From IMG/VR virus record IMGVR_UViG_3300028417_000011, positions 1 through 37,530 of that record: a DNA stretch of 37,530 nucleotides; one strand, written 5' to 3'. The notes beneath the pieces were generated by a model that saw only the letters and a list, made by a program, of their open reading frames with translations, made no database searches and had not been told where the DNA came from. Made by a program: the position numbers and the translations under genes. Origin of the DNA: a virus. Each line of letters begins with the position of its first letter. Position 1 is the first letter of the stretch. This document shows positions 1,259 to 37,528 of this stretch, piece by piece.

Positions 1259-1301
1259 AACGGTTTAGGCTAGGAAAAGTTGCGATTGGTAAATCGTACT
1301 T
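1259..1301. repeat. attC-like hairpin element B, left half (interrupted by prophage)
   Basis: The sequence runs from AACGG into GGAAAAGTTGCGATTGGTAA and ATCGTACTT, where it stops abruptly. The missing half is at 36186-36270. Joined across the phage, the two halves rebuild a stem GGAAAAGT/ACTTTTCC plus CGATT/AATCG. The same element is intact, in inverted hairpin orientation, at 37406-37528. The final TACTT (1297-1301) is one copy of the phage target duplication. Confidence 0.7.
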
Positions 1302-1308
1302 AAGGGGG

Positions 1309-1408
1309 TAAAAACAACATGTACTAATCCTTTATTATATTTTTGCCTGATATTTCCCATAGAATAAGGCTTTTAACAAATATAGACAAAAAACCACATG
1401 TCCTAATA
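1309..1408 (+). promoter_or_regulatory. Left-end transposase binding sites (L1, L2)
   Basis: Two related sites are visible, AAAACAACATGTACTAAT at 1311-1328 and AAAACCACATGTCCTAAT at 1390-1407, with their ACATG cores 79 bp apart. The second matches, in inverted orientation, the right-end repeat around 36124-36144 (AAAACCACATGTCCTA). In Mu-like phages the transposase binds several such sites at each end to assemble the transpososome. Function is inferred from position and repetition. Confidence 0.65.
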
Positions 1409-1762: not shown

Positions 1763-2452
1763 TTAACTCATTGAATTTATGCGAATAATTGCCTTTACTA
1801 AAGCTAATGCTTTTATTCTTGATTTAAGTATATGTCGTTCTTGGTGATTTTTGTTTTGCGAAACTAATTTAACCCACTCTTCTCCTTTGTCACTATGTTG
1901 TATATATTTAACGGTGATATACTCTTCATCATCAGTTTCTACTGATAATAAGTACATTTCACCCCAAAATATATCATTTCCGATATCGTGTATTTGCTTA
2001 TACATAATAATATCTCCACTTTTAAGCAAGGGGTACATGCTATCTCCAGTAACTTTTATAGCTCCATCGCACTTGGGTAAGTTGGGTATTGATATGTGAT
2101 CTATTGGGTTTTGTGCCGAAACATCTTTAAATAATGGAACCAAACCAGCAACAGCTTCAATATCATACAATGGTATAAGTTGATTTCCATTGTTAATACG
2201 ATCTGTTTTTAAAGTATAAACTCCTTGAGCTTCATTTACTTCTGTAATGTCTTTTATCATTTTTCCCTTACCAGTAAGAAGCCATTCAGCATTAATGTCA
2301 GGATAATACGCTAATATATTCGCATATTTATCAGTACTTATTTCTCTGCTTTTATCTAAAAAGCCATTAGATAAGCCTAAATCTTTATGAAACTTATATC
2401 GTGTAATACCTTTAAAATCAATATATTGTTTGATTCTATCTGTTATTTTCAT
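1763..2452 (-). CDS. Phage repressor, HTH + S24/LexA-type peptidase
   Basis: This is the master lysogeny repressor candidate. The N-terminal 60 residues form a helix-turn-helix domain ending in the typical INAEWLLTGKGKM segment. Residues 90-225 form an S24 peptidase-like domain with nucleophile Ser138 in GDSMYPLLKSGDI, general base Lys182 in ITVKYIQ, and an Ala102-Gly103 cleavage site in VAGLVP. This layout is that of LexA/CI-like repressors that cleave themselves when RecA is activated, so induction by DNA damage is likely. I start it at the ATG at 2452. An open frame runs 46 codons further upstream but is hydrophobic, overlaps the operator and is implausible. The gene is transcribed away from the transposition operon, as in Mu. 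Confidence 0.85.
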   Translation of the reverse strand: MKITDRIKQYIDFKGITRYKFHKDLGLSNGFLDKSREISTDKYANILAYYPDINAEWLLTGKGKMIKDITEVNEAQGVYTLKTDRINNGNQLIPLYDIEAVAGLVPLFKDVSAQNPIDHISIPNLPKCDGAIKVTGDSMYPLLKSGDIIMYKQIHDIGNDIFWGEMYLLSVETDDEEYITVKYIQHSDKGEEWVKLVSQNKNHQERHILKSRIKALALVKAIIRINSMS

Positions 2453-2522
2453 ACTAAACTTAGAATATATTTGTATAATATTAGAATATATTAGTATATT
2501 TGTACTGCAAAGAACAAAATAC
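2453..2522. promoter_or_regulatory. Early operator/promoter region between repressor and ner-like gene
   Basis: TTAGAATATATT occurs twice as a direct repeat (2460-2471 and 2481-2492; 21 bp, two helical turns). Two Bacteroidetes -7 boxes of the form TATATTTG lie at 2466-2473 and 2495-2502. The second would start the rightward early transcript near 2509, 14 nt before the ATG at 2523. The first supplies a TTTG at a -33-like distance. The repeats overlap both boxes, which is what a repressor operator should do. Binding is inferred, not shown. Confidence 0.65.
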
Positions 2523-2792
2523 ATGAGCGAAAATACAAAATTAAAAACAAGATGTCCTAAAAAAGACACTACAAGTACAAAAAAGGACATTTCATTATCT
2601 AAAAATTATATGTTTTCTGAAACTGAAGTTGCAAAACTAGCTAACTGTTCGGTTTCATACGTAAAGAAACTTAGATCAGGCGTAGTAGATACTAAAAGTA
2701 ATCTTGCTCAAAGAGTCTTAGCTATAGATGAGTTAGCTAATAATAGTAAATCTATCCTAATACAAGAAATAGAACGAATAGTAAAACTATAA
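2523..2792 (+). CDS. Small HTH DNA-binding protein, Ner-like early regulator
   Basis: This 89-residue basic protein has a helix-turn-helix pattern around residues 33-56 (FSETEVAKLANCSVSYVKKLRSG) after a lysine- and threonine-rich N-terminus. It is the first gene of the rightward operon, directly ahead of the transposase and divergent from the repressor. Ner or Cro occupies that place in Mu-like phages. I start it at the ATG at 2523 because upstream codons in the same frame run through the promoter. A role in turning down the early promoter after infection is inferred from position. Confidence 0.65.
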   Translation: MSENTKLKTRCPKKDTTSTKKDISLSKNYMFSETEVAKLANCSVSYVKKLRSGVVDTKSNLAQRVLAIDELANNSKSILIQEIERIVKL

Positions 2793-12025: not shown

Positions 12026-12041
12026 TAAAAACAACATGTAC
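12026..12041 (+). promoter_or_regulatory. Internal copy of the left-end transposase-type site
   Basis: TAAAAACAACATGTAC is identical over 16 nt to the outermost left-end site at 1309-1324 and in the same orientation. It lies 20 nt upstream of the -7 box of the antirepressor promoter, where a bound protein would affect transcription. It may bind the transposase, or a regulator that shares its site. Confidence 0.5.
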
Positions 12042-12060
12042 CAAAATAAAAATTAATTTG

Positions 12061-12068
12061 TATATTTG
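12061..12068 (+). promoter_or_regulatory. Bacteroidetes -7 promoter box of the antirepressor transcript
   Basis: TATATTTG matches TAnnTTTG. Transcription would start about 3-7 nt downstream, essentially at the first base of the 19-bp stem beginning at 12071. The -33 region (around 12036-12042) is not a good TTG match and is occupied by the transposase-like site, which suggests activator dependence. Confidence 0.6.
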
Positions 12069-12070
12069 TC

Positions 12071-12191
12071 GTGACCAACCGTTTTTGGAGAAATCTGAAA
12101 ACAATTAATTACGATAAGAGTTCACCCAAGGTGAGCAGTTCCGAAAGGGCTGTACTTCCGTCCAAAAAACGGTTGGTCACACCTAAAGGTG
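12071..12191 (+). ncRNA. Structured leader RNA ahead of the BRO antirepressor
   Basis: A long closing stem pairs 12071-12089 (GTGACCAACCG, T5, TGGA) with 12161-12180 (TCCA, A6, CGGTTGGTCAC). The outer 11 bp are perfect and there is a single-base bulge in the T/A run. Inside are two compact hairpins: TCACC/GGTGA with loop CAA (12122-12134) and CAGTTCC-GAAA-GGGCTG (12136-12152), whose loop is a GNRA tetraloop. A third hairpin, CACC-TAAA-GGTG, follows at 12180-12191. The transcript from the 12061 promoter would begin with this RNA and reach the start codon at 12216. I do not recognise it as a known riboswitch class; it could be a cis-regulator or a processed small RNA. Confidence 0.7.
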
Positions 12192-12215
12192 GACTCGCAT
12201 ACAAAATTTTCAAAT

Positions 12216-12890
12216 ATGACCAATAAGAAAATGAGTACACAAATGGCGTTTAAATTTAACGCTACAAGTCAAGAGGTTCGCAGTCTAATAATAGACAGTG
12301 AGCCTTTTTTTGTTGCAAAAGATATTTGTGACATACTTGGTTTGTCAAATTCAAGAATTGCAACAGCTAATCTTGATTCTGATGAGAAAGCTGACGTAAG
12401 TTTAACTTACAGCAGCTCAAATGGAACTACACAAAATCGTAAAACTAAAGTAGTTAGTGAAAGTGGTTTATATGCCTTAATTCTTAAATCAAGAAAGCCA
12501 CAAGCTCGTGCTTTTAGAAAATGGGTAACCAGTGAAGTTTTACCAACTATTCGTAAAAAAGGGTATTATGGTATTATAAATAAACCTAGTAATTTTATAG
12601 ATATACGAGATGTGCCATTTACCAAACAGCAATTTAACGGTTTTAACATACGTGTAATAGAGTATAAAAACCAAAATTGGTATAGCTTGGTAGATATACA
12701 CCGTTGTATAGGTTCTCAAACCTGTATTACACAAGCTGCTAAAAAACTAAATACTAAAAAACCGTTGGCTAAAAAAATATGGTTGTTTGGTGCAACACAA
12801 CCAGCTTGGTACACTACAAAGTTAGGTTTTAAGCTTATAATTAGTGGTAGTAGAGTATTTGCAATTAGTAATCAATTAAAATTAAATTAA
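12216..12890 (+). CDS. BRO-family phage antirepressor
   Basis: This 224-residue protein has an N-terminal BRO-N domain (about residues 11-118): the FFVAKDICDILGLSNSR motif, the conserved KTKVVSESGLYALILKSRKPQARAFRKWVTSEVLPTIRKKGYY block and the closing glycine-tyrosine. The C-terminal ~100 residues form a second domain (FTKQQFNGFNIRVIEYKNQNWYSLVDIHRCIG...) that looks like a second, diverged BRO-like or KilA-C-like unit. Antirepressors of this type bind DNA or inactivate repressors and can trigger induction. The start may be the ATG at 12216 or the one at 12231. It is the first gene after the structured leader RNA. Confidence 0.85.
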   Translation: MTNKKMSTQMAFKFNATSQEVRSLIIDSEPFFVAKDICDILGLSNSRIATANLDSDEKADVSLTYSSSNGTTQNRKTKVVSESGLYALILKSRKPQARAFRKWVTSEVLPTIRKKGYYGIINKPSNFIDIRDVPFTKQQFNGFNIRVIEYKNQNWYSLVDIHRCIGSQTCITQAAKKLNTKKPLAKKIWLFGATQPAWYTTKLGFKLIISGSRVFAISNQLKLN

Positions 12891-12893
12891 GCT

Positions 12894-13115
12894 ATGAGTA
12901 CTATTAAACAAACCGCAAAGCAAGTAGAAGTATTTTTTAACAATACTATTACTAAAGAAGAATTTTCACAGTATATGCGCCAATTTTTACATGTAGTTGT
13001 TTTAAACCAATTACAAGCAGAAGAAAACACTAATAATGCCACTATAGAAAGCGGTTACTATTGGTTAACCCAGTTTATAGAACAAATAGACCCAATGCTT
13101 CAAAAAGAAATTTAA
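12894..13115 (+). CDS. Small hypothetical protein
   Basis: This 73-residue helical protein has N-terminal (TIKQTAKQVEVFFNNTITKEEFSQYMRQFL) and C-terminal (YYWLTQFIEQIDPMLQKEI) amphipathic helices. It starts 3 nt after the antirepressor stop and was probably cotranscribed with it. It could be a partner of the antirepressor; that is inferred only from position. Confidence 0.6.
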   Translation: MSTIKQTAKQVEVFFNNTITKEEFSQYMRQFLHVVVLNQLQAEENTNNATIESGYYWLTQFIEQIDPMLQKEI

Positions 13116-36117: not shown

Positions 36118-36178
36118 TTATAAAAATAGGACATGTGGTTTTTCAAACAGTTATAAAAATGGGACGTTTGGATTTTGC
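36118..36178 (-). promoter_or_regulatory. Right-end transposase binding sites (R1, R2)
   Basis: Two direct copies start at 36118 (TTATAAAAATAGGACATGTG) and 36151 (TTATAAAAATGGGACGTTTG), 33 bp apart (three turns), each continuing into GGxTTTT. They are inverted relative to the left-end sites: the reverse complement of the first gives AAAACCACATGTCCTA, as at 1390-1405. The outermost copy sits 9 nt from the phage end, the same offset as on the left. Confidence 0.7.
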
Positions 36179-37408: not shown

Positions 37409-37528
37409 GGTTTAGAGCATGAAAAGTACGATTTATCAATCGCAACTTTTCACTTGTTAAATTTAGTTATTTTATTTGTTAGAAACATTCTGTTTTCCTT
37501 GATTTAGCAATTTTTTATGCGCGTTGTT
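37406..37528. repeat. attC-like hairpin element D (intact copy of the phage target)
   Basis: AACGGTTTAGAGC leads into a hairpin GAAAAGT-CGATT/AATCG-ACTTTTC (about 37419-37451) and ends TTTATGCGCGTTGTTAG, ~120 nt in all. It aligns end to end with the reconstructed element B, providing an unoccupied reference for the insertion site. Confidence 0.6.

Follow-up and report, generated by a model that had tools for sequence, protein, structure and literature searches.

The leader of a BRO-family antirepressor gene in a Mu-like phage very probably encodes a divergent c4-type antisense RNA, a cousin of P1 c4. We consider it highly likely that this RNA is cotranscribed with the BRO antirepressor and represses it, the leader alternating between two folds in a scheme that would have a role in lysogeny. 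The window, by which we mean the whole stretch of viral DNA analysed (37,530 nucleotides), had initially been annotated from its letters, with the proposal that a structured RNA gates antirepressor synthesis through an unrecognized switch. Gating by an RNA fold is strongly supported, compensatory changes being abundant in homologous leaders. The switch itself can be recognized, however: its design is that of the c4 antisense RNAs of P1 and P7, and the 19-bp stem at the centre of the initial annotation is only one of two states. That annotation had neither the alternative c4 fold nor the third stretch of complementarity, which lies at the BRO start codon.

P1 and P7 are enterobacterial phages whose antirepressor operons are silenced by c4, an antisense RNA of 77 nt; there this control has been established by experiment. 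The P1 record runs in the order C1 operator, promoter, a1/b1, C4 (48343-48419), a2/b2, icd and ant; as a positive control, Rfam recovered both C4 (RF01695) and the a1/b1 target (RF03163) in it. The c4-icd-ant operon is repressed by C1 together with C4 antisense RNA (PMC8198154), and processing of the C4 precursor by RNase P in P1 is cited in PMC12710915.

Profile matches to a transposase, a MuB-like ATPase and an S24-type repressor identify the window as the genome of a Mu-like phage, whose host we take to belong to the Bacteroidota from the promoter type and from a related phage in Litoribacter populi. The BRO protein is a predicted antirepressor: its Bro-N domain, shared with BRO/Ant antirepressors, scores above the Pfam cut-off, and this match together with that to PHROG anti-repressor Ant places a predicted antirepressor activity in the target operon, as in c4 systems. 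Its C-terminal part is common within this phage group. The S24-type repressor is its presumed target, through an inferred interaction. Between the repressor gene and an early gene lie near-identical direct repeats (TTAGAATATATTNGTATA, window 2460-2500), candidate operators for the repressor. The small ORF that follows BRO in the same operon is related (30% identity, 43 bits) to ORFs directly behind strong c4-2 RNAs in other host-family genomes, which links the BRO and c4-2 operon kinds independently of the RNA.

Table 1. Positions in the window of the leader elements, the associated genes and the end-type sites
Feature	Position	Strand	Basis
End-type (transposase- or repressor-type) site over the -33 region of the c4 promoter	12026..12044	+	18/19 identical to 1309-1327; same place in L059
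Putative -7 promoter box, TATATTTG	12061..12068	+	position relative to a1 conserved in 9/11 leaders
a1, upstream target copy, pairs with antisense segment	12071..12089	+	about -29 kcal/mol as duplex; covaries across 11 phages
c4-type core	12118..12196	+	full-length c4-2 match and 13-core covariation
Core outer stem	12118-12126/12188-12196	+	
Core inner stem	12130-12133/12180-12183	+	
Core GAAA hairpin	12135-12153	+	
Core hairpin 3	about 12158-12172	+	
Antisense segment (a'/b'); 12172-12179 pairs with BRO start	12161..12180	+	duplex energy and pairing tests
a2, target on BRO mRNA, UGACCAAU, from U of AUG	12217..12224	+	eight fixed-register pairs, as in all 11 phages
BRO-family antirepressor gene (predicted), start ATG 12216	12216..12890	+	Bro-N 95.8 bits (Pfam cut-off 25.6); PHROG anti-repressor Ant
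Small ORF, same operon as BRO	12894..13115	+	related to ORFs directly 3' of strong c4-2 RNAs
S24-type repressor	1763..2455	-	Peptidase_S24; PHROG transcriptional repressor
End-type sites AAAAACNANANGTCCTAA, left end, 79 bp apart	1310-1327, 1389-1406		
End-type site AAAAACNANANGTCCTAA in early gene	2543-2560		
End-type site AAAAACNANANGTCCTAA at c4 promoter	12027-12044		
End-type site AAAAACNANANGTCCTAA, right end, inverted	36126-36143		

The same leader, in different sequence and with its own c4-2 match, was found on a phage contig (L056) whose transposase is 74% and whose BRO protein is 67–68% identical to those of the window. A scan with these two BRO proteins led to L059–L063 and L065, and a further scan, run after the hypothesis was fixed, supplied L143, L145 and L148 as a held-out test; together with the window and L056 these form the set of 11 phages used below. 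All 11 share the part order promoter, a1, core, a2 at the AUG, and the three held-out phages all fit the leader design. Other searches returned little: DNA similarity against phage records gave AT-rich chance matches only, the BRO protein recovered only its own BRO from 149 host-family genomes, and the transposase found one distant relative among 199 genomes. Most other BRO relatives had no c4 match. In L063 the AUG carrying a2 opens a three-codon ORF (L063:1460-1490, ATGACTTCCTAATGG), the stop of which overlaps the BRO start, suggesting translational coupling such as has been proposed for icd and ant of P1.

The 19-bp closing stem is indeed present, near-perfect apart from one bulged A, and worth about -29 kcal/mol as a duplex. 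As had been claimed, structure in the leader exceeds the AT-rich background: against dinucleotide shuffles the fold of 12069-12218 has z = -3.9 and that of 12026-12260 z = -4.1, and none of 200 shuffles was as stable as the native leader. The GAAA-tetraloop hairpin and the local hairpins were likewise found. The proposed -7 box is present, and a TAnnTTT box begins 10–12 nt 5' of a1 in nine of the 11 related leaders, but the TAnnTTTG pattern alone is unenriched in the window (67 found, 72 expected). The conserved position of the box lends no support to the worry that transcription might start so as to exclude the 5' arm of the stem.

We find the stem best read as a helix between the antisense segment and the target copy a1. 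As nested structures, the a1:antisense helix and the c4 core are mutually exclusive, and computation puts the difference in energy between the two folds at -2.2 kcal/mol for the window; for eight phages the values span -8.3 to +4.2 kcal/mol. Being exclusive and nearly iso-energetic, these folds make the leader bistable, with the closing stem as one of its states. What the analysis shows is the anatomy of the leader, its two competing folds (by computation) and the three-way covariation.

If the window carries a c4-type RNA in which the 5' stem arm is a1 and the 3' arm the antisense segment, then a target copy must lie at the BRO start. This copy was found: UGACCAAU pairs with 12172-12179 through seven Watson–Crick pairs and one G-U pair. 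Furthermore, all 11 phages keep this pairing in a fixed register, the antisense segment base-pairing with all eight positions counted from the U of the AUG, and there are seven distinct targets among them. When tested in this register, own pairings fill all six variable positions while swapped ones average 3.1, and only one of 200000 permutations was equally good. Duplex energies at the AUG behave similarly, at -10.7 kcal/mol for own and -4.9 kcal/mol for swapped pairs (0 of 20000 permutations); 11 decoy windows between -30 and +300 gave no significant own-preference. With seven further non-BRO loci added, a1, a2 and the outer stem each gave 0 of 100000 permutations. Homologous leaders without compensatory changes were what the initial annotation had named as fatal to its claim; what an alignment of 13 cores revealed was that 23 of 25 pairs had two-sided changes and 92.7% of pairs were standard, against at most 51% in slid controls, and the claim stands. 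This alignment was fitted to a model, R1, and leans towards it, R1 having been built only from RNAs without BRO linkage; the fixed-register, duplex-energy and permutation tests are independent of the alignment. The pairing with a2 is 8 nt only, and the notion that a2 exceeds every other complementary run in its mRNA proved false once G-U pairs were allowed; position and covariation carry the argument. The three-way covariation is direct evolutionary evidence that base pairing of the antisense segment has been preserved.

In a transposable phage with end-type sites nearby, the inverted repeats might instead be DNA elements of transposition or recombination, or else an AT-rich coincidence. Covariation counters both, because the sequences change wholly between phages while pairing is kept, G-U pairs included; the repeats always lie between promoter and BRO start, the decoy windows were negative, and the fixed-register test needs no alignment. 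We regard this reading as largely refuted and assign it hardly any probability.

At its gathering thresholds Rfam returned nothing in the window, and the covariance search recommended at the outset was to that extent silent; when relaxed, it gave a full-length c4-2 alignment at 12120-12196 with 23 bits against a cut-off of 41, and no other match of note. RF01695 (C4) does not match the leader sequence. Matches to c4-2 are also present in homologous leaders (L056, 23.7 bits; L143, 33.5 bits; L148, 28.2 bits; cut-off 41). Since the window scores below that cut-off, we file it as a divergent c4-type RNA and not as a member of the curated c4-2 family (RF02944). It shares two structural features with the c4 clan (CL00128): a core built of an outer and an inner stem plus two hairpins, and an antisense segment complementary both to an upstream a1 and to a downstream a2 located where the target gene begins. 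Weak c4-2 matches at four other loci (L008–L011) had no a1/a2 context and look like chance. In L. populi (L057), which carries the related Mu-like phage, neither a BRO relative nor an R1 match was found. A second model, R2, whose training set includes the window itself, gave a false positive in the same genus (L140), antisense to an mfd-like gene, and R2 scores near 40 bits were therefore not taken as evidence for the window. A literature search yielded no account of c4 in Bacteroidota phages, the expected description of c4-2 lying outside its scope.

A compact structured leader ahead of a gene could also be a riboswitch sensing some ligand, or an attenuator of transcription, with no relation to c4. 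Rfam, however, offered no noteworthy match except c4-2, no terminator-like site was found on the + strand, and a target copy that tracks BRO codons 2–3 would be left unexplained; we judge this explanation very improbable.

As in P1 and P7, a site or operator is followed by the promoter, a1, a core of ∼77 nt with an outer stem and two hairpins, and a2 where translation of the antirepressor operon starts, and the antisense segment occupies the loop of hairpin 3 together with the 3' flank of that hairpin. Unlike in P1 and P7, where a1 pairs in two short blocks, the a1 helix here is single and continuous over 17–20 bp, and a single 8-nt a2 spans the AUG and codons 2–3 in place of a2/b2 ahead of icd. 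An immI-type operon of the P1 kind has icd between c4 and the antirepressor, whereas here the BRO AUG is targeted directly and a small ORF comes after BRO; in the place equivalent to the C1 operator at the P1 c4 promoter lies the end-type site, a putative protein site. With c4-2 RNAs (RF02944) the leader shares the full-length structural match, a conserved CCUAAA and a GNRA hairpin; a1 and a2 flank the c4-2 core too, and a related small ORF lies downstream. In contrast, it is small ORFs and not BRO that follow those strong c4-2 loci that were examined, and a1 and a2 of these loci are similar in strength. Counting against the c4 reading are the score of 23 bits where 41 is the cut-off, the lack of a P1-style icd, and an order of fold stability that varies between phages.

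Genomes of one host-family genus carry several c4-2 RNAs each, often ahead of small-ORF families (77–103 aa). The loci noted were L003, L005, L006, L007, L012, L014, L024–L053 and L136–L139; those examined carry duplicated a1/a2 targets around the core.

From P1 and P7 we infer the transcription start, processing, action in trans and role in lysogeny of the leader RNA. The transcript would begin at or just 5' of a1. In the first fold, a1 would pair with the antisense segment over 17–20 bp and hide it, allowing translation of BRO; in the second, the c4 core would form and leave the segment exposed in hairpin 3 and its 3' flank, from where it would cover the AUG and codons 2–3 of BRO and block initiation. 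The segment might work in cis, or in trans once set free in an RNA of about 77 nt. In a lysogen the antirepressor would in this way stay off and the S24-type repressor would remain active, and escape from the c4-type RNA would favour lytic growth.

The same two folds would also suit a leader acting in cis only, in which the antisense segment stays on the mRNA and cotranscriptional folding, a ligand or a protein decides whether the AUG is covered. Such a leader would fit the closeness of the folds in energy and the nearly constant distance from antisense segment to AUG (34–42 nt in eight BRO leaders). Nevertheless, the c4 core, in which the outer and inner stems are conserved, looks like the processed, trans-acting RNA of P1 and would be superfluous for a cis switch; this argument is not decisive, and we think the cis-only alternative unlikely without dismissing it.

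The initial annotation had, correctly, placed a 16-nt copy of the left-end site in the -33 region: the repeat runs for 16 nt without a mismatch, and 18 of 19 positions agree between 12026-12044 and 1309-1327. Allowing up to two mismatches, the end-type motif AAAAACNANANGTCCTAA has five sites in the window against 0.4 expected. Similar sites are present in the L059 phage: a pair near one end with a spacing of 79 bp, a single site in the early region and another preceding the c4 promoter; the 79–80 bp spacing of the paired sites is common to the window, L056 and L059. At the L056 promoter the site is degenerate or lost, and none was found in leaders from phages whose transposase has diverged or was not detected. 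The transposase may gate the antirepressor through the promoter site. We suggest, tentatively, that these leaders may form a distinct start-codon-targeting c4 branch, the precursor being a bistable switch set by the strong a1 helix, and that in transposable members a phage-end site on the c4 promoter may couple occupancy by transposase or repressor to the RNA decision. A 28-nt inverted repeat (96% complementary; window 1274-1301 and 37424-37451) lies outside the end-type sites, its right copy ∼1.3 kb beyond the rightmost of them.

The findings extend c4 logic to Mu-like and other Bacteroidota phages, below Rfam's threshold, in a variant whose antisense target is the start codon plus codons 2–3, and they give the exact base pairs of a putative lysogeny switch. 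The layout a1, core, a2 is a recipe for locating further c4-type RNAs, and the same searches yielded a related scaffold for which no Rfam family match was found in 11 loci scanned.

This second scaffold is the strongly conserved, different leader of four other BRO relatives (L147, L149, L150 and L192). Its logic is that of the c4-type leader, with an upstream copy, a folded core, an antisense segment and a copy 5' of the start codon; in sequence it runs AACCCCGUG ... UUGUAAUGG hairpin ... CGGGAAGUGG, with an outer stem GCGGC/GCCGU, and it precedes BRO as well as other phage genes. Besides the four BRO leaders, it was noted at L241–L287 (for example L287:3543-3635:-, L250:8962-9055:- and L278:6698-6793:+). 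In a pattern scan it turned up on 49 contigs, roughly 30 with a strong outer stem. Among 25 aligned cores, two-sided changes occur at 12 of 23 pair positions, and the scaffold is probably an undescribed subfamily.
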